Shown in pieces: positions 1,842 through 64,000 of a stretch of DNA of 64,000 bases. Positions within the stretch are counted from its first letter, which is position 1, and each line of letters begins with the position of its first letter. The DNA is from Cepaea nemoralis (taxonomy: Eukaryota; Mollusca; Gastropoda; Stylommatophora; Helicidae): assembly GCA_014155875.1 (NCBI GenBank), contig JACEFZ010004143.1:211001-275000 (forward strand), written 5' to 3'. The position numbers were made by a program, and so were the translations under genes. Under the pieces are notes generated by a model. The model was not told the DNA's origin, made no database searches, and saw only the letters and a program-made list of their open reading frames with translations.

Positions 1842-1988
1842 TTTCAGTTTTGATATGGCTAGCTCGAGTTCGCTGATTGTGATGGGTGCCTCCAGAACCT
1901 CATGTACTACTTCCTTCTGTCCTGTATGTTGCCGTTTCTCTCGAATCTCTTGTTGTTTCTCTGAACTAATTTTGATATTGTTATCTTA

Positions 1989-2215: not shown

Positions 2216-2218
2216 ATC

Positions 2219-4351: not shown

Positions 4352-4411
4352 CCAAGGTCATGGCAAACAGTGTGTATATCAACTGATCATACCTGACCCT
4401 GTTATACGCAT

Positions 4412-8681: not shown

Positions 8682-8936
8682 TCAGTCCTGAAAGACTATA
8701 GAGTTGTGCCGCTTGGGAGGTGCCTGGCAGCACCGCTGGTGACTGTATAGTCCAATGCGAGAGTGACAATCCCTGTCACAGTTTCCGCATCTGTAAGACG
8801 AGGCAAGTCCCGCAGTAAGTGACTGCGCTTTGAGCCTGTGCCGCCTATCCTCAGTTTGTTGGATCAGATTGCGCTCAAAGAGCACCAGTCCGTTTCGTAC
8901 ATCTCTTCTCCAGGAGCATCTGTCTGTTGCAACCAC
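8682..8936 (-). pseudogene. LINE C ORF2 C-terminus with zinc finger, out of frame
   Basis: It starts where the main ORF should continue (near 8930, a single frameshift) and reads FERNLIQQTEDRRHRLKA, then YRCGNCDRDCHSRIGLYSHQ. The latter is a CxxC...H finger of the 'C..C.R.(C/F).(S/A)RIGL.SH' type that ends many animal LINE ORF2 proteins. Restoring the frame would need one indel. Related tails occur at 49328-49441 and 59340-59400. Confidence 0.8.
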
Positions 8937-11900
8937 GTGTCTGGATCTATTCCAATGGTTTTCATATCTTGTTTACTCACATCCCTATATCGCATTTGGG
9001 GTCTTCCGGTTGGCCTCTTTCCTGTGGCTAGTTCTCCGTAAAGGAGATCTTTGGGAATACGTTCATCCTCCATTCGAGATATGTGGTCCAGCCACCGGAG
9101 GCGTCTCTGCTTGAGGAGGGTGTGCACTGTGGTAATATCTGCTCGTTCAAGCACCTGTTTGTTTGTTATGTGGTCTTTCCATGTTATGCCCAGGATACGT
9201 CTCAGACATCTCATGTGGAAGGAATTCAACTTCCTTTCCTGTCTTGAGTACAAGGTCCAGGATTCAGACCCATAGAGTAGTGTGCTAACAACACAAGCTT
9301 TATATACTTGAGCTTTTGTACGCTCTGTTAGTCTATTATTCTCCCAAACTCTTTTAGCTAGCCTGGAAAATGTTGTGGCTGCCTTTCCAATGCGTCTGTC
9401 GATTTCTGTCTCTAATGAAAGATTATCTGATATTGTCGACCCCAAGTACACAAAATCGTGGACGACCTTCAATTCGTAATTAGCAATTTTGATTGACGGG
9501 GGCGCACCAGCGTCTTGTTCCATCACCTGTGTTTTATTTAGGCTAATGGTGAGCCCAAAGTCTTTGCAGGCGGCTGCAAAACGATCTATGAGCCTTTGGA
9601 GATCTTCTGCTGTATGAGTAGTCAGTGCTGCATCATCTGCAAAAAGTAGTTCTCTTACACATCTTGATCTTATTTTGGTCTTTGCCTTGAGTCTTGATGG
9701 GTTAAAAAGTTTGCCATCAGATCTTGTGTGGAGGTATATGCCTTCAGTGGCAGTCCCAAATGCCTGCCTTAAGAGAACAGCGAAGAAGATACCAAAGAGT
9801 GTAGGAGCAAGCACGCAGCCCTGCTTTACTCCGCTGCTGATGCTGAATGACTGGGATGTTGAGCCGTCAAATAAAATGGTCCCCTGCATGTTTTCGTGGA
9901 ATGATTTCACGAGACTAAGAAGGGTGGGTGGACATCCAACCTTTTCAAGGACCTTAAAAAGGCCGCTTCTGCTCACGAGGTCAAATGCCTTTGTGAGGTC
10001 GATGAAGGCAATATATAATGGCTTCCTCTGTTCTCTGCACTTCTCTTGGAGCTGCCGGAGTGAGAAAATCATATCGATGGTGGACCTATTGGGTCTAAAT
10101 CCGCACTGCGATTCGGGGTAGATTCTTTCAGCAAGAATGTGTAATCTTTTAAGGATTACTCTGGCAAAAATCTTGCCTGTAATGCTGAGTAGGGAAATGC
10201 CGCGATAGTTGTTGCAGTCGCTTCTGTCGCCTTTGTTTTTATCAAGGGTAACGATGTTTACATCTTTCATATCTTGTGGTATTGATTTTTCTCTCCAGCA
10301 GAGCTGAAATATTGCATAGAGTTCTGGGATGATTGTTTCTTTGCTACATTTTAAAATTTCAGGTGGAATACTATCTTTTCCAGGTGCCTTGCCGGATTTG
10401 AGAGAGTCTAGTGCTTCGCTGATTTCTGTGAGGCAAGGTTCGTTATCCAGGGCATGCATGGCAGACTGTTGATCGATGGCTTCCAGAGCTTCTTCGCTGA
10501 CAGTGTTATCCACTGAGTATAGCTCTGAGTAGTGTTCTACCCAGCGATCCATTTGTTTCGCTCGATCTTTTATGATTACCCCCTCAGTTGATCGTAAAGG
10601 GGCCATCTTATTTTTTGATGGACCGACAGCTTGCTTGATGCCCTCGTACATTCCTCTTATATTTCCAGTGTCTGCACAAGTTTGAATTTGAGCAGAGAGC
10701 TGTAGCCAGTACCTGTTCGCACATCTTCTTGCCATCTGTTGTACTCTATTTCTGGCCGTTCGCAATGCCTGCAGTGTTTTCTCTGAAGGTGATGTTTTAT
10801 ACATTGAGAATGCATGTCTCTTTATCTCCAGGACTGGGAGCATCTCTTCAGAGTGTGCTTCAAACCAGTCGGTTGACTTAGTTTGCTTCTTGCCAAATGT
10901 TGATAGTGCTGTATTGTAGATGGTGTCGCGAAAATGACTCCATCTCTCGGTGGAATTTCCGTTTGTGGGGCCAGGCAGAGAATCCACTAGAGCCTGCATG
11001 AATTTGTTGACCTTCTCTTTATTTTGGGTGTCTCTGGTGTCAATGCGTGGTCTTCCGTCTGTTCGGCTTCTGTAGATTCTCTTGGGCTTTATCTTCACCT
11101 TGCTGGAGACGAGTGAATGGTCGGTGTCGCAGTCAGCACTATGATAGCTGCGAGTCAGCCGTACATTGCGGAGGTTGCTGCGTTTAGTGAGCACCAGGTC
11201 GAGTTGGTGCCAGTTCTTTGATCTGGGGTGCCTCCATGACACCTTGTGTTGAGGTTTCGTGTCAAAGAAGGTGTTGGTCACGCACAGATTATGGTGGCTG
11301 CAGAATTCCAAGAGACGTTGTCCATTGTCATTGATCTTCCCAACGCCAAACTGTCCTAGACATGAAGGCCAAGATTTGTGGTCGGAGCCAACCCTGGCAT
11401 TGAAATCCCCCAGGATAAAAAGATGTTGTTTCTCTGGTGTTTCACTGACTTCTTTGCTAAGGTCGTCATAGAACTTGTCTTTAGATTCTGATGCTGCAGT
11501 TAGTGTTGGGGCGTAAACGCTTATAATACTAACTGGGCCTGCCTCTGTCTGGAGTTGGAGCTTCAGTATTCTTTCAGTGCCATCACTTGGTGGTATGATG
11601 GAATTAAGCAGCTTGTTTCTGATAGCGAAGCCAACTCCATGCTCCCTGGTCTCTCCGCACGGCTTGCCATGCCAGTAGAAAGTGAAGTCCCTCTCCTTGA
11701 TGCTTCCAGATTCTTGGAGTCTGGTCTCTTGCAGGGCGACAATGTCTATCCCCAGTCTTAGTAGTTCGTTGTTTATCACTGCAGTTTTGCGGGCATCCAC
11801 AATCTCATTTAGATCGTCTGAGATGCCAGGGGTCATGGTTCTTACGTTCCATGTTCCCAGCCTTAGGGCTGGTTGTTTTGTTTTTTTCTTGTTGCTAGGT

Positions 11901-11983
11901 GTATAGATTGCGGTCCATGTGTCAGGATTTTCCCCTAAGCTCCACACACCCTCAGAAGCAGATGAACCGTGGCGAGACAACAC
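8864..11983 (-). CDS. LINE C ORF2: endonuclease-reverse transcriptase, 1039 codons
   Basis: The frame is uninterrupted. Residues 41-300 form the exonuclease-endonuclease-phosphatase domain: RLGTWNVRTM at 41-50, LQETRL, ILGDFNARVG and DTDHSLVSS supply the catalytic residues. The RT follows: QCGFRPNRSTIDM, AFIDLTKAFDLV (about 660, metal-binding Asp), VKQGCVLAPTLFG and LLFADDAAL (about 780). The thumb and C-terminal segment read YLGSTISDN and RCLRRILGITWKDH. The product nicks target DNA and copies its own RNA there. The first codon given is GTG, and a TAA lies eight codons upstream, so the real start is uncertain. The frame ends early: the normal C-terminus continues in another frame at 8936. 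Confidence 0.93.
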   Translation of the reverse strand: MLSRHGSSASEGVWSLGENPDTWTAIYTPSNKKKTKQPALRLGTWNVRTMTPGISDDLNEIVDARKTAVINNELLRLGIDIVALQETRLQESGSIKERDFTFYWHGKPCGETREHGVGFAIRNKLLNSIIPPSDGTERILKLQLQTEAGPVSIISVYAPTLTAASESKDKFYDDLSKEVSETPEKQHLFILGDFNARVGSDHKSWPSCLGQFGVGKINDNGQRLLEFCSHHNLCVTNTFFDTKPQHKVSWRHPRSKNWHQLDLVLTKRSNLRNVRLTRSYHSADCDTDHSLVSSKVKIKPKRIYRSRTDGRPRIDTRDTQNKEKVNKFMQALVDSLPGPTNGNSTERWSHFRDTIYNTALSTFGKKQTKSTDWFEAHSEEMLPVLEIKRHAFSMYKTSPSEKTLQALRTARNRVQQMARRCANRYWLQLSAQIQTCADTGNIRGMYEGIKQAVGPSKNKMAPLRSTEGVIIKDRAKQMDRWVEHYSELYSVDNTVSEEALEAIDQQSAMHALDNEPCLTEISEALDSLKSGKAPGKDSIPPEILKCSKETIIPELYAIFQLCWREKSIPQDMKDVNIVTLDKNKGDRSDCNNYRGISLLSITGKIFARVILKRLHILAERIYPESQCGFRPNRSTIDMIFSLRQLQEKCREQRKPLYIAFIDLTKAFDLVSRSGLFKVLEKVGCPPTLLSLVKSFHENMQGTILFDGSTSQSFSISSGVKQGCVLAPTLFGIFFAVLLRQAFGTATEGIYLHTRSDGKLFNPSRLKAKTKIRSRCVRELLFADDAALTTHTAEDLQRLIDRFAAACKDFGLTISLNKTQVMEQDAGAPPSIKIANYELKVVHDFVYLGSTISDNLSLETEIDRRIGKAATTFSRLAKRVWENNRLTERTKAQVYKACVVSTLLYGSESWTLYSRQERKLNSFHMRCLRRILGITWKDHITNKQVLERADITTVHTLLKQRRLRWLDHISRMEDERIPKDLLYGELATGKRPTGRPQMRYRDVSKQDMKTIGIDPDTWLQQTDAPGEEMYETDWCSLSAI

Positions 11984-12012
11984 CTTATTGACTGGGGGCT
12001 GCCCAGCTTAGG

Positions 12013-18979: not shown

Positions 18980-20326
18980 GGAGCGTTCATTTGACATCCG
19001 TTCTTGCCACACCGCGCGTAATTGCATACGTTGAACATGATCATGTCATAGTCATGTGATAAGTACTGACCAATGAATAAAACAGCATATGCTTATCATC
19101 CCATGATGCATAGGTTCTGTTTCTGACCGTTGAGAAAATGGCCGGGTTGATCCAAAATCCATCCAAAGAAGCTCAAAGAGTGGTGATTCAGTTTTTCTTT
19201 CATTTGAAGGATGTTGACCAGTGGACATTCATCGAAGAATGCAGGCAGCGTACGGTAACAAATGTGTGTCGAAGACAACAGTGACAGACTGGGCACGAAT
19301 GTTTCGGAAAGGACGTCAGTTCACGACAGATCTTCGACGGCCGGGTCAAGCGCATATTGTTGCAACAGAAAAAACCATCGCCAAAATTGATGCAGCAGTA
19401 CAGATGAACCATTGTCGAAGCATACGTTCGCTAGCGAAAGAATTTGATGTGTCAATTGGGACAATTCAAAAGGTCGTTCGTAAGAAACTGCAATATCGGA
19501 AGGTGTGTTCACAGTGGGTACCACGGATGTTGACCGACCACCAAAAAGAGGAACGCATGGGATGGTGTTTGAACCACTTGCTGCATTACAGAGTGGAGGG
19601 TGATGCATTTCTCTTCCGCATAGTGGCAGGCGATGAATCATGGTGTCACCACTTTGAGCCGAGCAGCAAAAGAGAGAGCATGCAATGGAAGCATGCTGGA
19701 TCACCAAAAGCCAAAAAATTCAAGTTACAGGTTTCCGCTGGTAAGGTTATGCTGAGCGCATTTTTTTACCATGAAGGGCTATTGTTGGCCGACTTTAAAG
19801 AACCTGGTGTCAACATCAACTCTACCCACTACTTGCAAACACTAGACAAGCTGCAAAAAGCCATCAAGAATAAACGACCGGCATGCTTTCTCGAGGTGTG
19901 ATTTTGTTGCACGATAATGCTCGTTCGCATGTTGCAAAGATTGTGCAGGAATCATTAGCTTGGAAGAAGTGGGAAATTCTGCAACATCCAGTCTATAGTC
20001 CTGATTTGTCACCATGTGATTTTCATTTGTTTAGACTTCCAAAAAAAGCTCTCAAGGGGCAATGATTTCACACAGATGCAGATGTAATGAATGCGGTAAA
20101 CACTTGGTTCAGTGAGCAACCACAATCCTTTTTTGTGGACGGCATTCGCCGCCTACCTAAGCAATGGGATTCTTGCCTGAATGCCTACAGCGACTTCTTC
20201 TGACCAAACCATGGTGCATAATTCATTCAAAATGAATGCTTTGTTTAATTCTACCACATCTGTTACTGTTTCTTTCATGCTTTTGTAATAAAGCCATTGA
20301 AATGGCTTTCAAATGAACAACCCTTA
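18980..20326 (+). mobile_element. Mariner family 2, nearly complete
   Basis: Imperfect inverted ends share GTTCATTTGA (18984-18993; reverse strand near 20310-20319) next to TA dinucleotides (18978-18979; near 20327). The length of about 1.35 kb is that of a full mariner. Transposase frames cover nearly the whole protein from ATG 19138 to TGA 20201. Confidence 0.85.
19138..20203 (+). pseudogene. Mariner transposase with two frameshifts and one stop
   Basis: The N-terminal part starts MAGLIQNPSKEAQRVVIQFF. After a frameshift near 19212 the main frame (19221-19901) carries IHRRMQAAYGNKCVSKTTV (helix-turn-helix), RSIRSLAKEFDVSIGTIQKV, the linker motif WVPRML and catalytic Asp 1 in VAGDESWCHHFEP. 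A second shift near 19880 leads to HDNARSHVAK (Asp 2) and YSPDLSPCDFHLF (Asp 3, 34 residues later). An in-frame TGA at 20063 follows ALKGQ. All three catalytic Asp are preserved, but the gene is dead. The family is DD34D mariner. Confidence 0.9.
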
Positions 20327-41830: not shown

Positions 41831-42584
41831 CACAATTGTCATGTAGCAGGTCCATTGCAGAATGTGACTCTCATGTCTTCAATCACTGTTCTTTCCAACA
41901 CACTGTGATGGCTAGTGTGTGCAAAGTGTTTGTTTCTGAGGCATGGTGTTGTTTCTGAACGATCCTCCTCTCGTATAGTAATCATGGATTAGAAGAGTTA
42001 TTCTTGTCTGTCAAAAGGCACAGCCAGGATCAAAATCTTTTTTTTTTCTGAATGAAACAAAAATAATGTTGACTATTTAAACTATAGTTCAACCAATAGG
42101 CACAGTGAAAATACAAAATATCAGATAAACAAAAATAAGTACAGCGTTTTCGTCACATGAAGAGCACATTACTGTTCTTTATTGAGTTGAGATGAATTCA
42201 GTCAAGAACCGACATCACAGCACTCAGGATATTACCATATGTGCTTCATCATTATCTTCAACAGCCAGCAAAGAGTCCCAATACTAATGGTAGCAGAAGC
42301 AGTCTGATTATGTGTCCATCTGGTCTTTCCTTGAAATCCTGAGTGTCGTCCAGATCCTCTGGTCACTCCCTGCAGTACCATTCTCTCCAGGCTGTGATAA
42401 TCTGTTCTTCTGCACTATACACATGACCCCAAAGGGCCCCAACCATGTCTGCCTTATCACGCACCAACACCCCCCCCCCCCCCCCTTCCCCCCGTGCTGA
42501 GCAGACCCGGCCAATCTGTCTGCCTGCTCGTTTCCCACCACACCAGCATTGTCCTTGGGGAAAAATCCAACAGATGTTCTTTAC

Positions 42585-42772
42585 TTTTTGCTCTCACTCA
42601 CTTTGAACAAGCGTGGTTCATACATGCTACTTCGAGTAGCACTGGACTGAATTTTGCATATGGATTAGCTTTCCCTTGCCAGCAGGCAAACCCACTCCGA
42701 CTTCAGAGGTACTTGTAATTTAGGTCCCCAAATCAAGGATGATAAGTCAACATTGTAGTCTAACTGACCAGT
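42585..42772 (-). mobile_element. SINE II copy 3 (head missing)
   Basis: The body from tttttgctctcactcacttt to gtagtctaactgacc matches SINE II. It interrupts the RNase H region of LINE B copy 4. Confidence 0.75.
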
Positions 42773-43592
42773 ATTTACCTCTCTGCCTGAAGCCTGCCTG
42801 TCTTCACCTTTCTGAGTCTGTTACAATCATGACATGTGTATGCTGTTTGTCCTCCAGCCAGTGGACCGCTGTTGTGACTGCTTCCACCTCCATTTTCAGT
42901 CTAGTTTTTTTTTTTTTTTTTGCTGCTCACTCACTTTGAACTCATGTGTAGTCCATATACACTACTTCTAATTGTGTTGGACTGAATTTTGTGTGTGGGT
43001 TAGCTTTCCCTATTAACAGTGTCCCTCGCCATCAGGCAAACCCACTCTGACTTCAGAGGTACTTGTAAATTTACATCCCCAAGTCAAGGATCAGAGCAGG
43101 GCATTCACGTGTCCTGAAAGTCGGAAATGAATGTCAAAGATAGAGGTAAAAGACCACCATGTGGATGTGGAAGTCAAGGGGAAACCACCATATTATCTTC
43201 CCAAGATTTTATGGTAACACAAATTTCAGAGATAGTGAATGATGTTAATGGATGTCTTAGGACATCGTTGTCCGGTAGTGACAGTCATGAGCCACAGGTG
43301 ACACCGGACTGTCATCCAGGTACTGATGGCAAAACCATAACTACACTAAATAAATTTAGAGTAGGAACATGGAATGTTAGGACATTAAATGAGCTGGACA
43401 GTTAAACAGTGTTCTAAGAGAAATGGAGAGCATGAAAATGAATATACTAGGCATAAGTGAGATGAGATGGAAGGGATCTGACAAAATTATAAGTGACAAT
43501 AATTTATTCTGGAAAAAGGTATAGGAATAATATTTGATGAAAAAACAGCCAAATCAATTTATGGATACTGGTGTATTTCAGATAGAGTTATT

Positions 43593-43931
43593 TTGGTCAA
43601 AATCAAAGGCAAACCAATAGATCTAAATATTATGCAAGTATATACATCAACAACAAACTGTAGTGATGAAGAAATACAACACTTTTACAATGAAGTAGAA
43701 AGGGTGACAGCTCAAATTGGATCACAAGGAATAAAAATAATACTGGGAGATTTTAATGCAAAAGAAGGAAAGGGAAAAATAGAGGATACAGTAGGGAATT
43801 ATGGTTTAGGTACAAGAAATGAAAGAGGAGAGAAACCAATAGAATGGGCAAATATTAATGATATGATAATTGGAAACACATGGTTAAACACCATAAAAGA
43901 CGACTCTACGCATGGAAAAGCCCTGACATGA
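43593..43931 (+). pseudogene. LINE F endonuclease fragment
   Basis: 112 open codons of the endonuclease fold: the QVY strand, then ILGDFNAKEG (catalytic Asp/Asn) and IIGNTWL. The upstream part with GTWNVRT (43330-43405) ends in a stop, and the region 43405-43590 is frameshifted. The domain is lost as an enzyme. Confidence 0.8.
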
Positions 43932-44240
43932 AAATACGCAACCAAATTGACTACATACTTATTAATAAAAGATTTAGAAATGTGTTTATTAATGTAAAGA
44001 CAATGCCTAGTGCTGACTGTCTTCTTCTTTTATTTGCTTGAAATATGTCTATAACTGCAATGTTGTCTCTTGTATGAATTTAACTGTATTTTTTTAGTTC
44101 ACTCAGTGGTCCATAGTGTTTATCTTCCACTGTTGTCTCTCTAGGCCAGAAGGTTTGCCTAGATATGTTATAGTTTGGGCAGTACTTGGAGTATGTGCAC
44201 TGCTGTCTGCGACGCCAAACCACATGTGCACATGGCTGAG

Positions 44241-44561
44241 TCACCAATCTTGAATTTTGTATACATGTAGGTTGCGTAATATATTGTGTCCTGTTCTGAG
44301 GCGCAGAATAATGACTTGTTCTGGTTTGTCCGTAAAGTGGTAGTCATCTTGAGCAGGTTTTGGTGGCTTTCTGACTGATTTGATCATTCTTTTCTTTTGG
44401 TGGTATGTAACGGGCACATCAGGCTGTTCTTCTTTTGCTCCTTGCTTAGCCAATCGATCAGCTCTGTCGTTTCCAGGTACTTCACAGTGGGATGGTATCC
44501 ACTGTATAGTGACTTTATGCTGACTGCTAAGTTCAGAAAGTAGTGTCCTTAGTACTGGCAA
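44241..44561 (-). pseudogene. LINE A RNase H C-terminus and tail domain
   Basis: VLRTLLSELSSQHKVTIQWI, then PSHCEVPGNDRADRLAKQGA. The His and Asp of the last RNase H motif are present; HCEVPGND replaces the usual HCGVPGNE. It ends with VIILRLRTGHNILRNLHVYK, the conserved post-RNase H segment of this LINE type. The same residues are partly visible at the left window edge in copy 1. Confidence 0.85.
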
Positions 44562-45330
44562 TTTCCCAGACAGGAGCGCCTCGAGTTCTTATTTTGCATC
44601 TGTCAATAGCACCACAGGTTGTGTACCATGGCGGGTATTTAGTAATTTCTCTGTTGCTGTCTTGATTGCCTCAATTTAAGCATCATAGTTATGGCAATAC
44701 TCTCCGGTTGGTACTCTGGCTATGTCCCTAGTATTATTTGGGTATTCAGTGTACACTCCCGCTCCTCCATTTCGAACAGCATTTTGTGCTGACCCATCTG
44801 TATAGACTCAGATCCAGAGGTCCTGTGGGTATTCTTCATCAAGGAAGCTGAGAGTGGCTGTTCTTCGCTATACACTGTTCTGTTACTTCCTTGCCAAATA
44901 TTCCTCTCACTTTTGTCTGGATTTGTAGTGATAGTGTATGTTCATCTTTCCTTGGAGTTCGCTCTGGAATAGTTGTCAGGGGGATACCAACTGTGTGCAG
45001 ATCGGTGGTTTCTCTGCAGAGTCGTTTGGCCTAGTGCATACAACTACTTCTTTTCAACCTCCCCATAGCTAAGTTTTCAAATTTGTCTTCATGGGGTGGC
45101 CTGGCAAGCTGAGGAACTTTTCTTCTTGTATGCTTGTATTAGGCGTTTTCGTATCTTTGCGCTCTCTAAGTGCTTGTGTCCTCCCCATCTTCTCCATCTC
45201 CACTATAGGGGTTGATCTCATCCCTCATGTGGTGACTCTAAGAGCTTGATTTTGCACCTTGTCCAGCTCTTGTAGTGTGGTTTTTTAAAAATTCTGAACA
45301 TCACGCAGTTGACCCATATTTCAGGTGTTG

Positions 45331-45789
45331 TCATATGCTCTGTTGATAAACTTTGCTAAGTATTTTCCCATTGGCTTCGCATGTGGTTCCACTTAGCTTT
45401 CTCAGGATGGCTATTTTCCTTCTGGCTTTTGCTACTGCTTTGTTGATGTGCTTTCTCCATGTCAGCCTGCCATCAAATGTTACTCCAAGTTGTGTTGGTT
45501 CTTTATCTTCTCTTAGGGGTGTTCCATTTATCTGGATGATCCCTGCCTTTTGTTTTGGAGAGAGGATAAATAGAGTGGTGCTGCACTTGTCAGTGCTTAT
45601 GCTGTCACACCATCTATTTGCCCATGCAACAAATGTATCTACAGCTCTTTGTAGCGATCTGGTGGCCACTAATGCATGTTCATTTGTGCTCCATAGAACC
45701 AGGTCATCTGTGTACATTGCTGCTTTAATTCCATGCGGTAGATTAGCAACAAGATCATTGATGAAGATTAGAAAGAGTGTGGGGGACAA
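45331..45789 (-). pseudogene. LINE A copy 2 RT palm and thumb
   Basis: 152 codons: MSPTLFLIFINDLVANLPHG, MYTDDLVLWSTNEHALVATR, WANRWCDSISTDKCSTTLF, LGVTFDGRLTWRKHINKAVA. Alignment with copy 1 shows YADD changed to YTDD and CVSI to CDSI. The rest of the RT is broken by a deletion near 46020 (motif A region) and frameshifts. Confidence 0.85.
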
Positions 45790-47995
45790 GACTCAGCCTG
45801 GGGAATACCGTCACGCAATAATGCTTTCTTGCTCTTGAGTTTGTCTATCTGTACTCTGGCTCTTCTATTGTGCAAATATGCTTTCACCCATTTGTACATT
45901 CTTTCATTGACTTTACAGTTTCTCAGTTTCTTCATCAGACCTTCTTTTCAGACTTTGTCAAAGGCTTTCTTCAGATCTGTCCATGCCGCAAGTACCAGCT
46001 TCTTCTCTTGGAATGCATCTGGTGAGGCTAATTGGTCTGTAGCTTGAGGCAATGGAACTATCTTTCCCTGATTTTAGGAGGAGTATCATGATTGCTTCTC
46101 TCCAGGCTTGTGGGACACTGCCTAAGGTCCAGCTATTATCTGCAACAGCTTAGCTTTGGCTTCTGTTCCTAGGTTCTTAATCATTTCTTTGGAGATACCA
46201 TCAGCTCCTTGTGACTTTCTCATTTTCAGTTTTGATATGGCTAGCTCCAGTTTGCTAATTGTGATAGGTGCCTCCAGAACCTCATGTAGTATTTAATTCT
46301 ATCCTGAATGTTGCCATTTCTCTCGAATCTCATGTTGTATCTCTGCACTGATTTTGATATTGTTATCTTGTGTGAATGAGTCCGCAAAATGGTCAGCTGC
46401 TTGCTTTCCTGTGTAAGATGTTTCCGTCTTTATGTAGTGCAATTTTTGAGTTTCTCCCTGTGCCCTCATCGTTAAATTGTTTTATTAGCTTCCACAACTT
46501 CCTTGTGTCTCTTTCAAAGTTCAGTGCCTGTTTTCTCCTGCCAACTTTTCCGTCTAACCTGCAGCTTGGCCCTTTGAAATTTAGCTTTTGCATGCTGGTA
46601 TTTATTATGGTGCTCTTGGCTGGGTCTGGCCTCTGCTTGCTTTCTACACACTTCCATATCATTATGCAACTGTTCCAGTTCACTATTCCAGTAGTTTATG
46701 TTTACAGGCTCCTCTTGGTACTGTTTCTCTTACTGCCTGTAGTATGCATTTCCCAAACTCTTCAACTACTGTATGTCTTTCTCATTGTTCAGGTTTCTAA
46801 CTTGCATGCTGGTGCGATGCTTGTAAATTTCCCAGTCTGCTTTATTGTAGTTTCGCCTCGAGAGGGTGCTGCTTTCACTTACAAACTTATTTTCTACAGT
46901 TAGAAAGATTGGCTTATGGTCACTGCCACCAAATTGTTTCCCAACAATTCATTTAATGTTCCATTCCAGGTCTGGTGAATGAAAAAGCCAGGTCAGGTGT
47001 AGTTGTAGAGTGCCATGATCTCGAGTAGAAAGTATGTGCGTCAGACAGCTTGTTAATCAAGATGAATCTATTTTCATCCCGCCATTCTTCCAGTCTCTCT
47101 CCTCTCTGGTCCATATGATCATAGTCCAGCTCTGCGAGTGGCTGTTGAAATCGCCACACAATCATTTTTTTCTTTTAATGGTAGTGTGTCCAGTGCCTGT
47201 GGGCGGTCACTTGGACAGTAGTAATTGATTAGATGTAGGTCTGTATTGCCTGTCTTAAGTTTAAGTGTCTGATACAGCCCCTTCCATGTAAACTTAAATT
47301 TGGGAAGCAGTGATGTTATTTTTAACAAGGGTCAGTATCCCACCCTTTCGCCTGTCCTTTCAGTCAGATCGGTAACATTGGTAGCCTCTGATTTTGAAGA
47401 CTATATTTTCATTGAGGTGAGTTTCTCTCCGCATTCCAGTGCATTATTTTTAGTCTTTGTTTGGTATGGCCAGACGCTCTATTCTCAGGTCCCCTTGCTC
47501 CACAGGACATCTGAGAAGGACCTCCAGTAGTTGTGGTTGGACCCTTTCGAGGCAAAGGGCCCGGCACTGTACCTGCCTGGGGGTCCAAAGCAGGGCGAGC
47601 ACCATAACATTTAGCAATAGTCAACATATTTCATGGTGTAATTGCGTGCATCCTGATTTCTGTGGTGTGCCTCCTGGCTGGTTGCCTCCGTCTTCGCCAC
47701 CTTTCCTTTGCTAGAGCATACTGTAGTCTTACTCGAGTTTAGATGTGTAGGTGCGCACACACGTGTCTGTGCATGCATGTACCTGCATACACATCTAGAG
47801 CGTACTCTGGTTATTTTTCGGCGCCAGAGACTCGCTGCCACCCCTTCTCCTGTTAGTTAAAACAGTACCGCCTCATGAAGGCCAGGAGTTAGACTTTTGC
47901 TGCAGAGGTGATGAATGCACGAGCTATTGGGGTATTTATGCAAGGTTGGGCACTCACCCCAACTCTATGCCCCGGCTACATACAGTGTCAGCAAC

Positions 47996-48659
47996 CTATT
48001 TTATACAGGCATACAGGGATTCTTCATTTGTACCAGCACGAATATCAACTCGTAGGTGTACAAAGGGTAAAGTCGCTTTATTGCGTACAGAATACAATCG
48101 GCTCCGCGAGCTCACATGAACATTCATATATGCACATCATCACAATCAATACAATCATAACAATACTAAGCACAATCTCTATCTGTCCTAATTCTAGCTT
48201 AAGTCACTACACTACTGTGCCCTGCAAACCACACAGTGGTCAGGGTAAATACATCGACTTGTCTCCTCAACTGTCCAGTCCCGTCTGGCTAGCTTTGCAG
48301 CGTTGTCCAGCTGCGGACCTGTGAATCCTCGTGCGTCAGCAAGGTTGCGTGCTGTGTTACCTAGCATGCAGCTCAGTAGCCTGTCACTAGTTACTGTGCT
48401 CGAGTTAGTGCTGTTTACGGGTACTTCCCGTGAACAGCGTCCTCTACTCTAACCTGGGAGTAAATCCCTGTCATGTCCTACAATGTCCTACTTATGACAC
48501 GTGCGTGTCCTGTCGGAGAACTGCTTAAGAGTTCTACCTTCTACTTCTGTCCCTTCCTTCTCTATTCCCTGTTAAGGGATGTTATCTCTATCCTGTCTTA
48601 GTCTTATCCCTAACTTCTATCCTTCTATTACTTCTGTCCTCTCATCCAGCTCCTTGACA
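47996..48659 (-). mobile_element. Solo LTR (664 bp)
   Basis: Begins TGTCAGCAACC and ends CTCCTTGACA, so TGTCA...TGACA. It is flanked by the 5-bp duplication TACAG (47991-47995, 48660-48664). Copy 1 of LINE A (2782-2790) shows the empty site. On the minus strand an AATAAA lies about 95 bp before the end and GTATAAAATAGG near the end, suggesting minus orientation. No internal region or primer-binding site, so it is a solo LTR. Gypsy or BEL type by the 5-bp target, not resolved. Confidence 0.85.
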
Positions 48660-49327
48660 TACAGCAACATTTGGAACTAGTGCTGGCTGTAATAGTGATC
48701 ATGTACCAATATGTGGACAAATAAAAGTAAGATTAAAGAGAGGGAACAAAATGGTTAAGAACTTGAGACTTAATAAAGAGGTTCTGAAAGTAGATAAAGA
48801 AATTCAAGAACAATACAGAGTGACTGTGAAAAATAGGTACAATGCAATAGTTAAATTATAGATTAAAAATGAACAATAGGAAATGTTAAGGGACTCCATT
48901 CATCAAACTAGCAAAGAAATATTACCGGAGAGAAGCCAAAAAGCTAAGAAAAGATGGATGAATGAAGAAATCTTAATGCTGATTGACAAAAGGAAACAGA
49001 ATAAAAATGACAAACAAGAATATGCTAAGATAAATAAAGAAATAAGAGATAAATGTGTGAAGGCAAAAGAAAGTTTATTAAACAAGCAATGCAAAGAAAA
49101 ACAGCTAGGCCAGATAAAATGACAATAGAAGAATTAGAAGTATTGGAAGAATGTGAAGTAGATATATTAACCAAAATGAATGATATTTACAGCAGTGGAT
49201 ATTTACCAAGCGATATGCTGAAATCTGTATTTATAGCTATACCAAAAAGACCAGGAGCAATTGAATGCAAAGATTTTTGTACAGTTAACCTCATAAACCA
49301 TGTCACTAAGCTTCTACTCAGAAGTAT

Positions 49328-49441
49328 TTTTCGAGCCAAAATAGGCCTTATCAGCCATCTTAGAACCCACGGCTCCATACCTTCAACCCCACTGGATGAA
49401 ATAAATGGTCATCATCATTCTTGATGGACAAACAACAACAC
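49328..49441 (+). mobile_element. 114-bp LINE 3' end carrying a zinc-finger codon tract
   Basis: Flanked by an exact 12-bp duplication, ACTCAGAAGTAT (49316-49327, 49442-49453). It encodes FRAKIGLISHLRTH, the second half of the C-terminal finger of LINE C-type ORF2, then a 3' UTR with GGTCATCATCATTC. It is a severely 5'-truncated insertion inside the RT of LINE F. Confidence 0.85.
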
Positions 49442-51902
49442 ACTCAGAAGTATAATGAGAAGAACAAGAAAGAAGATAAAAATGGAATTTAATGAAGAAC
49501 AGTATAGTTTTGTAGAAGGAAAGGGTGCAAACAATGCATTATATATATTATGAGATAGAAAGGTCAATAGAGAAACAGAAAGACATATATTTGTGCTTCA
49601 TAGATTATACTAAGGCATTTGATAAAGTAAAACACGATGAACTGATTAAAATGTTGGAAGATACCAACATTGATGGGAAAGATTTAAGAATAATAAAGAA
49701 TATTTATTGGAACCAAGTAGCAGCAATTAAAATAAGAAATAAAGAGGGTAGTTACGAACAGATAAAGCTAGTAATATAACAGGGGTGTGTCTTGTCACCG
49801 GATCTCTTCTCCCTCTATAGCGAAGTAATGATGAGAGAGATCAAAGAGAAGCCAAGAATACTAATCAGGGGTTATAATATAAACAGTATACGCTGTGCGG
49901 ATGACACAGTATTGGTAGCGGATAATGCAACAGACCTACAACAATTGTTGGACATTGTAGTAACAGAGAGTGAAAAGAAAGGACTCTCCTTGAATATCAA
50001 GAAAACAGTAACAATGGTGATATCAAAGAAAATGGTGACACCAAAATGTGACATAGAAATAGAAGGCATTTAAAAGCCGCATTTCAGAAAATGAAGAGTA
50101 TCTTATGCAATAAGTCACTATCAATGAATGTAAGAAATAGAGTTCTGAAATGCTATATAGAACCAGTTTTGCTGTATGGCAGTGAATCTTGGAATGTAAA
50201 ATGAACAAATTAGGAAAAACTTAGAAGCAACAGAAATGTGGTTTTTGAGACGAATGTTGCGAATTCCTTGGACTGCCAGAGTAACTAACAATGATTGCCT
50301 GAAAGATGCTAATGAGACTAGAACACTATATACAACAATAAGAAAGAGACAAAGAGCTTTCTTTGGTCATGTGATGAGTAGAGAGACATTGGAGAACATC
50401 GTGACAATCGGAAAGATCGAGGAGAAGAAAGGCAGAGGCAGACCAAGAGAAATGATGCTGGATGGATTGAGACAGTGGCATGGAGGAATATCATCAGCAG
50501 AGTTGATCCAGATCACCAAAGACCGAGATCTGTGGAGAGCCATGAATGCCAACGCCAGCTGGCAGGGCACTTGATGATGATGATGAAGTCCAGCTGTCCG
50601 GGCTAAGGGTTGAACCCCTTACCTTGGCATCAGCACACTGGATGTTTAAGAACACTCGCTCTTATCCATTCGGCCATGCTGACCTACCTCAGACTAGATG
50701 ATGTGGTATCATATGCTAGGCTCTCCTGCACTAAAATCATCCTTTAACCTTTGCTGTGAACTCCCAGGCACTTCTGTTGCCTCAAAGCACAGAGCAACCA
50801 TATAGGCGATTACATCACCTCGTCGCCAATTATCATGGATCTGTTGTACCTCCCATTCAGTATCATCGACCCAATGTGATTATAACTGTACAGGTCTGAC
50901 TTTTCCTCTGGCATTCTGACCAACTCTCCTCCTCTCCCAATGTTCTCAAGCATGCATACTTTTCTAATTGTGTCCTCTGCCTGAGCCATCCATGATTTTC
51001 ATCTGATCAGCCTTTGGCCCATAACTGTGTCCAGGGCTTCATGCAGGAGGTGTTCCGTGTCTGTAGCCACTCTGAAATATGACTTAACCTGCAGCACCTT
51101 GAGCGTGTATGCTATCATGGGTAAAGCTGGGATGTATCACATACACACTACTGGTGTGTCTCTTGTGTATCCCAGTATCACCCGCATATCTTCATTCTTC
51201 ATGCGCTGTATTTTCATCAGCTGACTCTTTTACATTGTGGGCAATCCCAATGCATACTCAGTTGCCAAGAGAATCAAATGTTCTTTGCTCCATGTCCATT
51301 GCTGCCATAAGCTTCAGTGCACCGAGTCCCTTCTTAACAGCTGCTTCCACATGATCCTTGAACGACAGGGTTCTGCCAAAGGTGATTCCCAGGTACCTCA
51401 GTTTACTCTCTGTTAATATTTCTGCCATTTATTATAAGTCTTTGGATGTCAGCCTTAACAATCTTATTAACCAGAAAGCACCATAACACAGACACCTTAT
51501 CTGGGTAAATGACTCAATCCATCTCTGTACACCAGTCGATCACTTTGTTAACTGTCTCCTTCAACTTTTGCGCTATTGCTTCCTGTCTCTCCCTTGCCTT
51601 TACGCAAGGACATCCTCTGCAAATGTCGGTATCCTTCCAATCTCTGGTACTTCAGTGCTTGCAAGGTTGCAGATCCTCTGGTAATCCTGGGACAATAATG
51701 CACACCTCCGAGGTCCACGAACCAACGAGAACCCTACGAGAGTGCAGGGTAGCTGCTATCCAATTCAACACCCAGAGACCAACACCCATCTCTATAAGTG
51801 TGTGCTTTAAGAGATCATATTTGACTCTGCTATATGCAACCTCAAGATCCAGTGCATTGTTTATTTGATGCACTAAGCAGTGAGATCGAAAAACACTTAT
51901 TG

Positions 51903-54900
51903 TATCCATCCATCCATCATGTGCCATGCCGATAAGCGTAGGCGGTCATGTTCTGCCATCTCACTCGATTACCAGTCTTGGATCAGCTCTGTGTTCCTGT
52001 CTCTACCATGCCACATGGCCAAGCCATCCAGGTATTTACTTCTCGGTCTTCCCCTTGGTCTCTTCCCTTTGATCTTGCCAGTCGTCACCAAGTTCTCCAA
52101 TTCATTTCTTCTCATAACATGCCCAAAAAATGTTGACTGTCTACATCTAATGTCTCTAATCAGTTTACGATCATCATTTGTTTCTTGAAGGACTTGTTCA
52201 TTGGTTTTTCTGTCTTTCCATGGTATTCTTTGCATTTTCCTCAGAAACCACATTTCCACAGCCATCAGCTGTTTTTCAGCTTGACTGCTTATTGTCCACG
52301 CTTCACATCCATACAAAAGTATAGGTTCTATGTAGCACTTCAACACTCTTTTTCTCGTTTCAATATCTTTTTATTGGTCAGTATGTTTTTCATCTTGCAA
52401 AAGGCTACCTTCAGCAATGGCAATTCTTGTTCTAATCTCTTCAAGGCATCTCCTATCAGATGTTATGACTGTGCCGAGATAACTGTATCGATTCACTTGC
52501 TTAAGAATATGCCCATTTACTCGTATATCACATTGTGGTATTTCCTTCTTCCCAGTGACGACCATAATCTGTGTCTTCTTAATATTCAGTTCTAACCCTA
52601 GTTGTTCACTGTGTGCAACAACCGCATCTACTAAATTTTGCAGGTCCTGTTCATTGTCTGCAATCAAGACTGTATCATCTGCATATCTAATGTTATTAAT
52701 GTATCGTCCCCCAATGTTGATTCCTTCCATATCTTCTATATTTCTGAAAATATTTTCACTGTACAGGGAAAAAAGATCTGGAGACATTACACATCCCTGT
52801 CTCACACCTCTTTTAATAGGCTGATATTGACCTACATTGTTATCAATTCTGATGGCAGCTTGTTGTTTCCAATATATGTTTTTTTACAAGTCTAAGGTCT
52901 TTTCCATCAATTTGTAGATCTTCAAGCATCCTTATCATGTCGACATGTCTCACTTTATCGAAAGCCTTTGTGTAGTCAATAAAGCAAAGATATAGATCTT
53001 TGTTTACTTCTATAGAACGTTCAATTACTGTTCTCAGTATATACACAGCATTTACTGTGCCCTTGCCTTCTACAAACCCACATTGTTCTTCTCCTATTTC
53101 GGGTTGTATTTGCTTCCTGATGCTTTGCATGATAATTCTCAGCAGAATCTTCGTGATGTGGCTCATTATACTAATTGTTCGATGATGATCGCATTCCAAG
53201 GCTCCTGATTTCTTCGGTATTGCAATAAATGTAGAATTACATAATTCAGGAGGTATATCTCCAGTATCGTATATTGCGTTCAGCAGTCTGGTGACTTGGT
53301 CTATTCCATATTCTTCTAAGGCATTGATCATTTCTATTGTGATGTTATCTGTACCCGGGGTCTTGCCAGTTTTCATATGGTTAAGAGCATTCTGAACTTC
53401 CATCTTCAAAATTGATGGTCCTTCATTATTATTCCGATGATCATATTCTTCTCTTGTATCATCATAAAGGTCTTTCACATAATCTGACCACGCATGTAAT
53501 ATCTGATCTTTTTCTATTATGATTTTGCCATCTTTGGTTTTTAGGCAACCCGTTGATGTGTGTGTTCTTTTATTAGTGATGAAATTAATTCTTTTGTACA
53601 TTAATTTGGTATTCCGGGTGTTGTGATAGTTTTCAATTTCCTTGCAATTTTCCTCAAGCCATGTTTCTTTTGCCTCTTTGCATAGCTTCCTAATTTTCTT
53701 GTGAATCTCTTCATATTTTTCCTTGTTACTTTTGTTATTTCTTCTTACTTCCATGAGTTTTAAGATGTCTTCCGTCATCCATTTCTTGTGTCCTATTATC
53801 TTTATTTTTGGGATGGTTGTTTCTGCAGCTTGGTTGACTGATTTCTTTAATATTTCCCATTGGTCACTGACGTCTTGAAAAAATATTTCCATATCGGATC
53901 TGTTCTTTATCTCTACATTGAATTTATCTTTTATTTCCTCACTCTTCAGTGCCTGTAAATCAAATTTTGTGTTTCTTGGTGGTGAATATTTGACTTCCAT
54001 TAATTTTATATGTAAATTGCTTAAGATTAATCTATGGTCGCTGCAGCAGTCTGCACTTGGTATAGCTTTTGCGACATTTTAAGGCATTTTGAAATCTTTT
54101 GTTGATGTTTATGTAATCTCCTTGGGTGCTGTTGATACCAGGTGTTTCCAATTATCAAATCATGCTCTTTTGCCCATTGTACAAGTCTGCAACTTCTTTT
54201 ATTCTGTTCCCCCAGTCCATACTTGCCTACTATGCATCCGTCCTGTTGATTTCCAACTTTGGCATTCCAGCCACCCATTATGATATTTACTTCAGAATTC
54301 TTGCATTTCTTGAAGGCTTTCTCTAAATCATTATGAAACTAATCAATGCTGTCATCACTACTGTCTGCTGTTGGTGCATAAACTTGTATGATGTTGACAT
54401 CAAAAGGTCTTCCTCTCAACTTCACCAGTAACACTCTGTCTGATACAGTCCAATATCCTTTGATCAATTTTGCTTTCTCTTTATCCATTATAATTGCTAC
54501 TCCTCGCTGCTGTTTCTCTCCACCAGAATAGATTATTCTATATTCCTCAGATATTATAATGCCCATTCCTGTCCATCTGGTCTCACATATACCTAACAGG
54601 TTAATATTTAATCTTCTCATTTCATTCTTAATGTTATCAAATTTTCCATCCCCACTCATAGTCCTTACATTCCAAGTTCCTACTTTCAATGTTGATATTC
54701 TTTTGCACTCAGTTGCCTGATGACGGTCTGGAGTCACCTGATGCACATGACTACCCCTACCGGGCGAGGCTGCTCCTATGGAGCACCCATTTACGCCATT
54801 TCTCTGATTATCGATAAGACTGCAGTACATGATATTCTTGGCATCTGTAAAAAAGGTAGTTTGCCATTGCTTTCCTTCCATGACTCCATGACTGCTAACA

Positions 54901-54985
54901 GTACACCTCTCTCGGCTGCACCTAGCAATGTTATCATAGCTGTGCAACATCTTATTCAGATAAAATACTGAATTCACATAATAAA
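51903..54985 (-). mobile_element. LINE family D, copy 1 (most complete)
   Basis: From 5' (54985) on the minus strand: leader with GGAAAGCAATGGCAAACTAC, endonuclease (54977-54339: LKVGTWNVRTMSGDGKFD; LLGICETRWTGMG; NIIQVYAPTADSSDD), its second part (54278-54027: GGWNAKVGNQQDG), linker and RT fingers in a 385-codon frame (54000-52843), palm (52805-52371: RQGCVMSPDLFSLYSENIF; IRYADDTVLIADNEQ) and C-terminus (52346-51969: GHVMRRNELENLVTTGKIKG). The 3' tail is (GATG)n. Four frameshifts or stops break it. The layout resembles RTE/BovB. Confidence 0.9.
52843..54000 (-). pseudogene. LINE D linker and RT fingers, 385 codons
   Basis: Starts with MEVKYSPPRNTKFDLQALKS. A Lys-rich linker follows (MTEDILKLMEVRRNNKSNKE), then LNHMKTGKTPGTDNITIEMI, TFIAIPKKSGALECDHHRTI, GEEQCGFVEGKGTVNAVYIL and KDLYLCFIDYTKAFDKVRHV (motif A Asp). 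It is cut before motif B by a frameshift near 52830. The next frame holds RQGC and YADD, so one indel separates two well-preserved halves. Confidence 0.88.
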
Positions 54986-55375
54986 TTTGACATCTTCTAT
55001 AAACTCCAGCATTTACAACTACGTCAGCTGATACATGGTCATGCTATACAGTTACACTACCAGTAACAAGCCCTGAATACCTTTGGCTGAATGCATTATA
55101 CACACACAATTGATTTTCACTCGTACATGCACTCAGCAATCAGCGAGACTGTTAACGTATTTCACGCTGTATGCAATCGCCCGTGGCTTTAACCCTTATC
55201 CACTCAAACAACACCCTAATAATTGTAATATATACGTTATAATGTATATGATATTATTCATAAATATAAGTATGGTTGAAAATGAAAATTTAACAATGAA
55301 TATTGAAATTAACAACCGTTATACAATAAGTTGGGAATAGAACAGCCCTGTATTCACAAGTTTTCTTCTCTTCCT
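54986..55375. other. No recognisable feature
   Basis: AT-rich intron sequence. Confidence 0.45.
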
Positions 55376-55550
55376 TTACTTTGGGATGTAAATTACAAGT
55401 GCCTCAGAAGTCGCCTGATGGCGATGGACACTGGTAATAGGGAAAGCTAACCCACATGCAAAAATCAATCTGGTGCACAAGACGTATGGACTACGCTTGA
55501 GTTCAAAGTGAGCAAATGCAAACAAACAAGACAACAACCTGAACAAACTC
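55376..55550 (+). mobile_element. SINE II copy 5 (head missing)
   Basis: gatgtaaattacaagtgcct, cagaagtcgcctgatggcga, agggaaagctaacccacatg, ttgagttcaaagtgagcaaa, then an A-rich tail. The 20-bp minisatellite begins immediately after it. Confidence 0.75.
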
Positions 55551-56545
55551 TTCAGTCGGATACATGAGTGGTCAGTCCGATACATGAGTGTTCAGTCCAG
55601 TACATGAGTGTTCAGTCTCATACATGAGTGTTCAGTCCGATACATGAGTGTTCAGTCCAGTACATGAGTGTTCAGTCTCATAAATGAGTGTTCAGTCCGA
55701 TGCATGAGTGTTCGGTCCGATACATGAGTGTTCAGTCTGATACATGAGTGTTCAGTCCGATGCATGAGTGTTCAGTCCGGTACATGAGTGTTCAGTCCGA
55801 TACATGAGTGTTCAGTCCAGTACATGAGTGTTCAGTCCAGTACATGAGTGTTCAGTCCAGTACATGAGTGTTCAGTCCGATACATGAGTGTTCAGTCCAG
55901 TACATGAGTGTTCAGTCCGGTACATGAGTGTTCAGTCCAGTACATGAGTGTTCAGTCCGATACATGAGTGTTCAGTCCAGTACATGAGTGTTCGGTCCGA
56001 TACATGAGTGTTCGGTCCGATACATGAGTGTTCAGTCCGATACATGAGTGTTCAGTCCAGTACATGAGTGTTCAGTCCGATACATGAGTGTTCAGTCCAG
56101 TACATGAGTGTTCAGTCCAATACATGAGTGTTCAGTCCGATACATGAGTGTTCAGTCCGGTACATGAGTGTTCAGTCCGGTACATGAGTGTTCAGTCCGA
56201 TGCATGAGTGTTCAGTCCGATGCATGAGTGTTCAGTGTGATACATGAGTGTTCAGTGTGATACATGAGTGTTCAGTGCGATACATGAGTGTTCAGTCCGA
56301 TACATGAGTGTTCAGTCCAGTACATGAGTGTTCAGTCCGGTACATGAGTGTTCAATCCAGTACATGAGTGTTCAGTCCGATACATGAGTGTTCAGTCCAG
56401 TACATGAGTGTTCAGTCCAGTACATGAGTGTTCAGTCCAGTACATGAGTGTTCAGTCCGATACATGAGTGTTCAGTCCAGTACATGAGTGTTCAGTCCGA
56501 TGCATGAGTGTTCAGTCCAGTACATGAGTGTTTAGTCCGATGCAT
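55551..56545. repeat. 20-bp minisatellite, about 50 copies
   Basis: The unit is TACATGAGTGTTCAGTCCGA with three main end variants (CCGA, CCAG, CCGG) and rarer changes (TGCATG, GTGTGA). The period is strict. It lies in the ceramide synthase intron before the 57630 exon. Confidence 0.95.
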
Positions 56546-56552
56546 GCTAAGA

Positions 56553-60689: not shown

Positions 60690-60958
60690 GGACAGGAGTG
60701 CTTGTTCTTAGACAACCAGTGTGCTGATGCCGATTTAGCGGTTAAACACCTACAGCGGTCAGTTGGATTCAAATGTTGACTTCTCATCCTTGACAAGGGG
60801 ACATAAATTACAAGTACCTCTGAAGTCGGAAAGGGTTCGCCTGATGGCAAGGGAGACTGGTAAAAAGAAAAACTAATGCACATGCAGAAATCAGCCCTGT
60901 GCACTAGAAATAGTAGCATGTATGTGAGCTATCCTTGAGTTCAAGGCGAGTGGATGCA
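60690..60958 (+). mobile_element. SINE II copy 6
   Basis: It retains part of the head (ccagtgtgctgatgccgatt, degenerate box B region) and the full body (ggacataaattacaagtacc, ctctgaagtcgg, ttgagttcaaggcgagtgga). The 29-bp satellite starts within three bases of its tail. Confidence 0.75.
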
Positions 60959-60960
60959 AC

Positions 60961-63945
60961 AACACGTGATACTATGATAATACTAGAGCAAGACATGATA
61001 CTATGATAATACTAGAACAAGACATGATACTATGATAATACTAGAGCAAGACATGATACTATGATAATACTAGAGCAAGACATGATACTATGATAATACT
61101 AGAGCAACACATGATACTATGATAATACTAGAGCAACACGTGATACTATGATAATACTAGAGCAACACGTGATACTATGATAATACTAGAGCAAGACATG
61201 ATACTATGATAATACTAGAGCAAGACATGATACTATGATAATACTAGAGCAACACGTGATACTATGATAATACTAGAGCAACACGTGATACTATGATAAT
61301 ACTAGAGCAAGACATGATACTATGATAATACTAGAGCAAGACATGATACTATGATAATACTAGAGCAAGACATGATACTATGATAATACTAGAGCAAGAC
61401 GTGATACTATGATAATACTAGAGCAAGACGTGATACTGTGATAATACTAGAGCAAGACGTGATACTATGATAATACTAGAGCAAGACGTGATACTATGAT
61501 AATACTAGAGCAAGACATGATACTATGATAATACTAGAGCAAGACATGATACTATGATAATACTAGAGCAAGACATGATACTATGATAATACTAGAGCAA
61601 GGACGTGATACTATGATAATACTAGAGCAAGACGTGATACTATGATAATACTAGAGCAAGACATGATACTATGATAATACTAGAGCAAGACATGATACTA
61701 TGATAATACTAGACCAAGACATGATACTATGATAATACTAGAGCAAGACATGATACTATGATAATACTAGAGCAAGACATGATACTATGATAATACTAGA
61801 GCAAGACATGATACTATGATAATACTAGAGCAAGACATGATACTATGATAATACTAGAGCAAGACATGATACTATGATAATACTAGAACAAGACATGATA
61901 CTATGATAATACTAGAACAAGACATGATACTATGATAATACTAGAGCAAGACATGATACTATGATAATACTAGAGCAAGACATGATACTATGATAATACT
62001 AGAACAAGACATGATACTATGATAATACTAGAGCAAGACATGATACTATGATAATACTAGAGCAAGACATGATACTATGATAATACTAGAACAAGACATG
62101 ATACTATGATAATACTAGAGCAAGACATGATACTATGATAATACTAGAGCAAGACATGATACTATGATAATACTAGAGCAAGACATGATACTATGATAAT
62201 ACTAGAGCAAGACATGATACTATGATAATACTGAGAGCAACACATGATACTATGATAATACTAGAGCAACACATTATACTATGATAATACTAGAGCAAAG
62301 AACATGATACTATTGATAATACTAGAGCAAGGACATGATACTATGATATACTACTAGAGACAGACATGATACTATGATACTACTAGAGCAAAGACATTGA
62401 TACTATGAATAATACTAGGCAAGACAGGATACTATGAAATACTAGTAGGCAAGACATGATACTATGATAATACTAGAGCAAGACATGATACTATGATCAT
62501 ACTAGAGCAAGAGCTGATACTATTATAATACTAGGAGCAAGACGTGATACTATGATAATACTAGAGCAAGACATGATACTATGATAATACTAGAGCAAGA
62601 CGTGATACTATGATAATACTAGAGCAAGACGTGATACTATGATAATACTAGAGCAAGACATGATACTATGATAATACTAGAGCAAGACATGATACTATGA
62701 TAATACTAGACCAAGACATGATACTATGATAATACTAGAGCAAGACATGATACTATGATAATACTAGAGCAAGACATGATACTATGATAATACTAGAGCA
62801 AGACATGATACTATGATAATACTAGAGCAAGACATGATACTATGGTAATACTAGAACAAGACATGATACTATGATAATACTAGAACAAGACATGATACTA
62901 TGATAATACTAGAGCACGACATGATACTATGATAATACTAGAGCAAGACATGATACTATGATAATACTAGAACAAGACATGATACTATGATAATACTAGA
63001 GCAAGACATGATACTATGATAATACTAGAACAAGACATGATACTATGATAATACTAGAGCAAGACATGATACTATGATAATACTAGAACAAGACATGATA
63101 CTATGATAATACTAGAGCAAGACATGATACTATGATAATACTAGAGCAACACATGATACTATGATAATACTAGAGCAACACATGATACTATGATAATACT
63201 AGAACAAGGCATGATACTATGATAATACTAGAGCAAGACATGATACTATGATAATACTAGAGCAAGACATGATACTATGATAATACTAGAGCAAGACATG
63301 ATACTATGATAATACTAGAGCAAGACATGATACTATGATAATACTAGAGCAAGACATGATACTATGATAATACTAGAGCAAGACATGATACTATGATAAT
63401 ACTAGAGCAAGACATGATACTATGATAATACTAGAACAAGGCATGATACTATGATAATACTATAGCAAGACATGATACTATGATAATACTAGAACAAGAC
63501 ATGATACTATGATAATACTAGACCAAGACATGATACTATGATAATACTAGAGCAACACATGATACTATGATAATACTAGAGCAACACATGATACTATGAT
63601 AATACTAGAGCAAGACATGATACTATGATAATACTAGAGCAACACATGATACTATGATAATACTAGAGCAACACATGATACTATGATAATACTAGAGCAA
63701 GACATGATACTATGATAATACTAGAGCAAGACATGATACTATGATAATACTAGACCAAGACATGATACTATGATAATACTAGAGCAAGACATGATACTAT
63801 GATAATACTAGAGCAAGACATGATACTATGATAATACTAGAGCAAGACATGATACTATGATAATACTAGACCAAGACATGATACTATGATAATACTAGAG
63901 CAAGACATGATACTATGATAATACTAGACCAAGACATGATACTAT
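60961..63945. repeat. 29-bp minisatellite, about 103 copies
   Basis: The unit is CATGATACTATGATAATACT followed by AGAGCAAGA. Variants CGTGAT, AGAACAAGA, AGACCAAGA and AGAGCAACA are clustered. A patch at about 62225-62520 has many one- or two-base indels, unlike the rest. The array lies in the intron following the 57630 exon. Confidence 0.95.
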
Positions 63946-63967
63946 CAAATCAAATCAACTTTATTTT
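63946..63967 (-). mobile_element. 22-bp retroelement 3'-end scrap in the satellite
   Basis: The bases CAAATCAAATCAACTTTATT plus TT interrupt one repeat unit between ACTAT and GATAAT. On the minus strand this reads AAAATAAAGTTGATTTGATT plus TG, with an AATAAA and a TTTGA repeat as found at 3' ends of LINEs and SINEs. Too short to classify. Confidence 0.45.
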
Positions 63968-64000
63968 GATAATACTAGAGATAATTCTAGATAAGACTAT

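Follow-up and report, generated by a model that had tools for sequence, protein, structure and literature searches.

Insertion order of five nested mobile elements at a locus of the Cepaea nemoralis genome

What can a stack of mobile elements, each lodged in the next, tell about the past of a genome, and does the order in which the copies landed also give the order in which their families were active? The question is raised by a 64,000-nucleotide stretch of the gastropod Cepaea nemoralis (contig JACEFZ010004143.1, positions 211,001 to 275,000 of the forward strand; assembly GCA_014155875.1, 3.47 Gb in 26,579 contigs), referred to here as the window and numbered from its first letter. Five mobile elements are nested in it one within another. 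A long interspersed nuclear element (LINE B) holds a short interspersed nuclear element (SINE II), which holds LINE F, which holds LINE A, which holds a 674-bp element resembling a long terminal repeat (LTR). LINE F also carries a side insertion of 114 bp, apart from the five layers. The layers and the side insertion were found where the initial annotation, made from the letters of the window, had placed them (Table 1). The insertion order which it claimed for these copies is supported at each step, and follows from the geometry of the nest, which forces it.

Each layer was excised and the joined flanks were realigned, as the initial annotation had proposed. Four of the five junctions closed within the window, and the fifth, LINE A in LINE F, closed on LINE F copies from the same genome. 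As a control for chance, the real right flank was swapped for random flanks (2000 at the DNA level, 500 at the protein level) and the closure scores were compared. With SINE II removed, LINE B closes on a window copy at 13.8 kb. With LINE F removed, SINE II closes on copies at 35.4 and 60.8 kb, apart from a gap of ~17 nt. Removal of the 674-bp element closes LINE A on a window copy at 2.7 kb, and removal of the 114-bp insert closes LINE F on a window LINE at 53.1 kb. At all of these junctions none of the random flanks did as well (0/2000). A first version of the control, with 1000 flanks, was flawed in that random flanks could land on the comparison copy itself; it gave 1-3 flanks per 1000 as good as the real one at the same junctions, including both copies used for LINE F. 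The insertion of LINE A in LINE F passed the protein-level control, in which 1 of 500 random flanks was as good.

Empty sites in other copies of the host elements lead to the same order. From 39 other scored LINE F places in the genome, 29 loci were obtained. Nineteen run continuously through the site of LINE A (~93-96% identity), one matches on the right side only, and nine have no match there; these nine may be truncated or stop short of the site. All 29 are continuous through the site of the 114-bp insert and lack it. LINE A was compared with one set of 7 copies and a second set of 21 (20 loci and the in-window copy 1), and the site of the 674-bp element is empty in 6 and 20 of these, that is in 26 of the 28 examined. 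The LINE copies obtained are the best search matches and are therefore biased towards intact, young ones.

Three of the four nesting steps are marked by target duplications, of 9 bp at SINE II, 14 bp at LINE A and 5 bp at the 674-bp element. Target-primed reverse transcription leaves duplications like those seen at SINE II, LINE A and the 114-bp insert. LINE F differs; no duplication is found at 43091/50586, and about 17 nt of its SINE II target are missing. LINE insertions are known to cause loss of target sequence in some cases. The statement that each step leaves either a duplication or a break that closes is borne out for SINE II, LINE A and the LTR-like element, but has to be amended for LINE F, where there is no duplication and the break closes with this loss.

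The 114-bp insert is flanked by an exact 12-bp duplication that the initial annotation had not reported. It is a separate insertion in LINE F; its earlier name, a LINE tail, draws on one short motif. One frame of the insert reads IGLISHLRTH and resembles a frame located beyond the downstream end of the long LINE open reading frame (ORF) of the window, at 8786; we take this motif to resemble LINE C-termini. No similar motif was found among 360 obtained proteins, nor any DNA relative of the insert in the window. A LINE 3' tail is a possible identity for the insert.

Apart from a target duplication, LINE F has the features expected of a LINE. Pfam identifies RVT_1 (E 3.3e-13) and, below its curated cut-off, Exo_endo_phos_2 (E 0.0015), and tblastn aligns LINE F to a relative that bears both an endonuclease and a reverse transcriptase (RT). 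The 3' end is constant and the 5' end variably truncated. In all eight genome copies looked at, the match stops at 50580-50586. At the 5' side, four of eight loci extend upstream of the nest start at 43091, three begin later and one has no match; since four extend upstream, the nest copy is 5'-truncated.

LINE A contains RVT_1 (E 1.4e-10) and RNase_H (E 1.9e-7) by Pfam, and its named relatives are from molluscs. Its protein, with in-window copy 1 as the query, best matches Bradybaena similaris (78% identity over 71% of the query), and 8 of the 10 listed matches that name an organism are gastropods (most name none). Its target duplications vary in length at fixed termini. Among 11 rows listed from the 20 loci, five have, at the same termini as in the nest, duplications that span 11-15 bp and contain no more than one mismatch; the other six carry no score, one by a misplaced end and at least one by a longer tail. 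At 47426 many of the LINE A copies among the matches listed carry ~70 extra bases, which are absent from the nest copy and from eight listed copies that are more distant; the extra bases are possibly the mark of a subfamily. Copy 1 is without ~1.06 kb found in the nest copy and has ~230 additional bases at 1987-2216. It belongs to a second nest-like place (1-4424), where it stops at 2798 and a match to LINE B relatives, on the minus strand, starts.

LINE B, the outermost layer, shows RT and RNase H homology when relatives are aligned by tblastn (50.9-51.9 kb and 42.2-42.6 kb); the two LINE B ORFs that were tried gave no Pfam match. The 3' end is common to window copies at 13284 and 6768, and four of the five organism-naming matches listed for a LINE B relative are gastropods (again, most rows name none). 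An ORF matching LINE B relatives contains tandem 69-bp units at 4408-4686 that keep the frame. At its broken 5' end LINE B adjoins another LINE of the LINE F kind (51908-54878), and a search with five relatives found no continuation of LINE B beyond it (51908 onward). Within 54700-55400, the one interval searched, no convincing target duplication of this neighbour was seen (best pair 12 letters, one mismatch). For the neighbouring LINE at 52.8-54.1 kb, 22 of the 25 listed matches with a named organism are gastropods, most rows naming none.

SINE II is a short dispersed element with a T-run, a 9-bp duplication, copies at 35.4 and 60.8 kb and further fragments. The head looks tRNA-like by eye only. 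ARAGORN found 0 tRNAs over the window and Rfam gave no tRNA match (E up to 1) over 50560-50720, so SINE II is not assigned to the tRNA-derived SINEs. LINE B also contains a second copy of SINE II, a truncated one (42577-42770), and therefore seems to have been struck twice by this family. A satellite with a period of ~58 bp (60958-63980) starts at the edge of the SINE II copy at 60703-60980.

The innermost element sits 12 nt from the 5' terminus of LINE A, between copies of TACAG. Its ends are TG...CA, its target duplication measures 5 bp, and neither a second LTR nor an internal region is present beside it; in other LINE A copies the site is empty. By its termini, duplication and empty sites the element looks like a solo LTR. 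Its strand was guessed from one AATAAA, in a scan of the minus strand.

We propose, with high confidence, that five retrotransposons landed here in succession: LINE B, SINE II, LINE F, LINE A and the LTR element. LINE B, now 5'-incomplete, would have been the first to arrive. Target-primed reverse transcription would then have placed a copy of SINE II in it and produced the 9-bp duplication. The 5'-truncated LINE F would have entered SINE II, where ~17 nt of target were lost and none duplicated, and LINE A, with both termini, would have entered the endonuclease region of LINE F and produced the 14-bp duplication. The LTR element would have inserted in LINE A close to its 5' terminus, duplicating 5 bp, and recombination between its two LTRs would later have left a single one. 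At an unspecified time after the arrival of LINE F, the 114-bp fragment would have been added with its 12-bp duplication. Of this account, the layering and order of the insertions, their duplications and empty sites, and the truncated 5' end of LINE F are shown directly, while target-primed reverse transcription and LTR-LTR recombination are inferred from how such elements generally behave.

Several observations weigh against this succession. With LINE A excised, LINE F did not close at the DNA level on two distant in-window LINE relatives (211/2000 and 20/2000 random flanks as good), and in the flawed first control all 1000 of 1000 flanks were as good with either relative; these relatives were dropped as closing copies for this step and the closer genome copies used instead. 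The empty sites are those of other copies within the same genome, none from related species. Coding damage is greater in the inner LINE A (2.4-2.7 per 100 codons with five relatives) than in the outer LINE F (1.2-1.5 with four, 2.2 with a fifth), at one-sided Fisher p values of 0.09 and 0.04 for two chosen pairings, uncorrected. As a clock, coding damage ran opposite to the insertion order and was not decisive. Divergence from the nearest in-window copy is 12% for SINE II, and from the nearest in-window fragment it is 19% for LINE F, the younger of the two, although families are not comparable in this way; dating by nearest window copy was dropped because the families are unequally sampled and the ranking departs from the nest order. 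Finally, the 674-bp element has no known relative. It has no further copy in the window or in the other obtained loci, and its ends form a 5-bp inverted repeat, as might be expected if it were a short mobile element of some other kind, ending in TGTCA/TGACA and duplicating 5 bp of target. We regard this as unlikely, as TG...CA ends with a 5-bp duplication best fit an LTR, and at least one land snail has more solo LTRs than intact elements (PMC9719178, in its available text). Another alternative is that the stack is an artefact of assembly or recombination that joined unrelated repeat copies. Repeat-rich assemblies do misjoin, and this one comprises 26,579 contigs, but a misjoin would not produce duplications at three of four nesting steps and at the side insertion, nor breaks that close on other copies save for the ~17 nt at LINE F. 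Such an artefact is extremely improbable, and successive insertion is retained.

Most of the damage by stop codons is the nest copies' own, since 10 of 13 stop codons in the nest LINE A, and two of the three checked in the nest LINE F, are present in none of the covered copies. On the same count, LINE A seemingly does not descend from a broken source shared with the covered copies; its excess may be due to chance, to unequal sequence make-up or to a broken source outside the sample.

Does the nest also give the order of family activity? The initial annotation read it so, with SINE II active before LINE F, LINE F before LINE A and LINE A before the LTR. Interruption matrices do order families of transposable elements when counts are summed over many insertions (TRANScendence, PMC5657132, as far as its available text describes), but a single nest holds one event per family pair. 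We compared private divergence, that is, substitutions found in no other obtained copy. The nest LINE F has 73 in 2178 sites (3.35%), against 0-1.9% in the 29 other loci, of which the two with zero divergence look like two copies of a single variant. For the nest LINE A the count is 143 in 3961 (3.61%), against 0.1-1.9% in 20 other copies. Both families thus have copies far less divergent than those in the nest (0.3% or less, against 3.4-3.6%), and LINE F copies younger than the nest LINE A already speak against the proposed activity order, which we consider very unlikely and which does not follow from the nest. The 3' flank differs in each of the eight LINE F copies inspected, which are therefore separate insertions. 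Given the low private divergence of other separate copies, the simplest reading is that the LINE F family kept inserting long after the nest copy landed, although the nest copies could instead come from an unsampled older subfamily.

A comparison of divergence between layers, also suggested by the initial annotation, does not tell which of LINE F and LINE A is the older. The values overlap (3.35 ± 0.76% and 3.61 ± 0.58%), and so argue neither for nor against LINE F before LINE A. The similar private divergence of the two LINEs (~3.4-3.6%) is what would be expected if LINE F, LINE A and the LTR element had landed in quick succession from families active together, in one burst and not in a sequence of eras; we hold this tentatively, as a possibility a little short of even. 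At a molluscan rate of 1.645e-9 per site per year, taken from the available text of PMC9719178, a private divergence of 3.5% would correspond, very roughly, to 20 million years.

Reading history from nested transposons is established, and this nest is a new instance of it. In what their available text describes, studies that use nesting as a relative clock (PMC5657132; PMC2517846, on mammals, by interruption analysis; REANNOTATE, PMC2672092; LTRtype, PMC5379124) share with the present analysis the principles that younger elements interrupt older ones, that excision restores the host and that nesting gives order. They differ from it in scale, as here one locus of a LINE- and SINE-rich gastropod genome is treated, free of genome-wide statistics. 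Large plant genomes commonly contain nests (PMC6911290, available text), in which LTR retrotransposons likewise form insertions within insertions, whereas non-LTR elements make up four of the five layers here. Oreohelix idahoensis, a land snail, also has a repeat-rich genome with many solo LTRs; its genome is described as LTR-dominated in the available text of PMC9719178, while this nest consists mostly of LINEs. In a genome rich in repeats, such a nest is nothing unusual. Its value is as a clean worked example of insertion-order reading in a gastropod, with empty sites from the same genome. It shows too the limit of a single nest, which orders insertions and not the active lifetimes of families.

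Table 1. Parts of the nest, with window coordinates and target duplications.
Feature	Position	Strand	Basis or length
LINE B, 3' part (RNase H-like region to 3' end)	42190..42904	-	tblastn with RT-RNase H relatives; includes left copy of SINE II target duplication
LINE B, RT part	50698..51880	-	tblastn relatives reach 51855; continuous with 13.8 kb copy; 5' end missing; next element from ~51908
SINE II, tail-side half	42905..43090	-	aligned to copies at 35.4 and 60.8 kb; T-run (+ strand) at left end
SINE II, head half	50587..50688	-	aligned to copies at 35.6 and 60.7 kb
SINE II target duplication	left TCAGTCTAG 42896..42904; right TCAGACTAG 50689..50697		9 bp
LINE F segment 1, 5'-truncated, endonuclease-like region	43091..44020	+	Pfam Exo_endo_phos_2; tblastn relatives
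LINE F segment 2	48691..49327	+	internal deletion of ~90 codons vs relatives
LINE F segment 3, RT to 3' end GATGATGATGATGA	49454..50586	+	Pfam RVT_1; family 3' end
LINE A, 3' end to near 5' end (endonuclease-like, RT, RNase H)	44021..47985	-	Pfam RVT_1, RNase_H; tblastn with endonuclease-bearing relative
LINE A, terminal 12 nt of 5' leader beyond LTR	48665..48676	-	5' terminus common to window copy 1 and genome copies
LINE A target duplication	left CTAGTGCTGACTGT 44007..44020; right CTAGTGCTGGCTGT 48677..48690		14 bp
674-bp element, TG...CA ends, read as solo LTR	47986..48659	- (guessed)	site empty in other LINE A copies
LTR target duplication, TACAG	left 47981..47985; right 48660..48664		5 bp
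114-bp insert, possible LINE 3' tail	49328..49441	+	site uninterrupted in other LINE F loci
114-bp insert target duplication, ACTCAGAAGTAT	left 49316..49327; right 49442..49453		exact 12 bp
Separate truncated SINE II copy within LINE B	42577..42770	-	matches SINE II copies at 35.4, 43.0 and 60.9 kb

The window holds further repeats outside the nest. A tandem array with a period of ~60 bp occupies 55551-56546, and open frames at 5795-6340 and 19218-19898 resemble mariner-type transposases by eye only. On the minus strand, a LINE frame of 1047 codons at 8867-12007 is open throughout, which suggests a young element.

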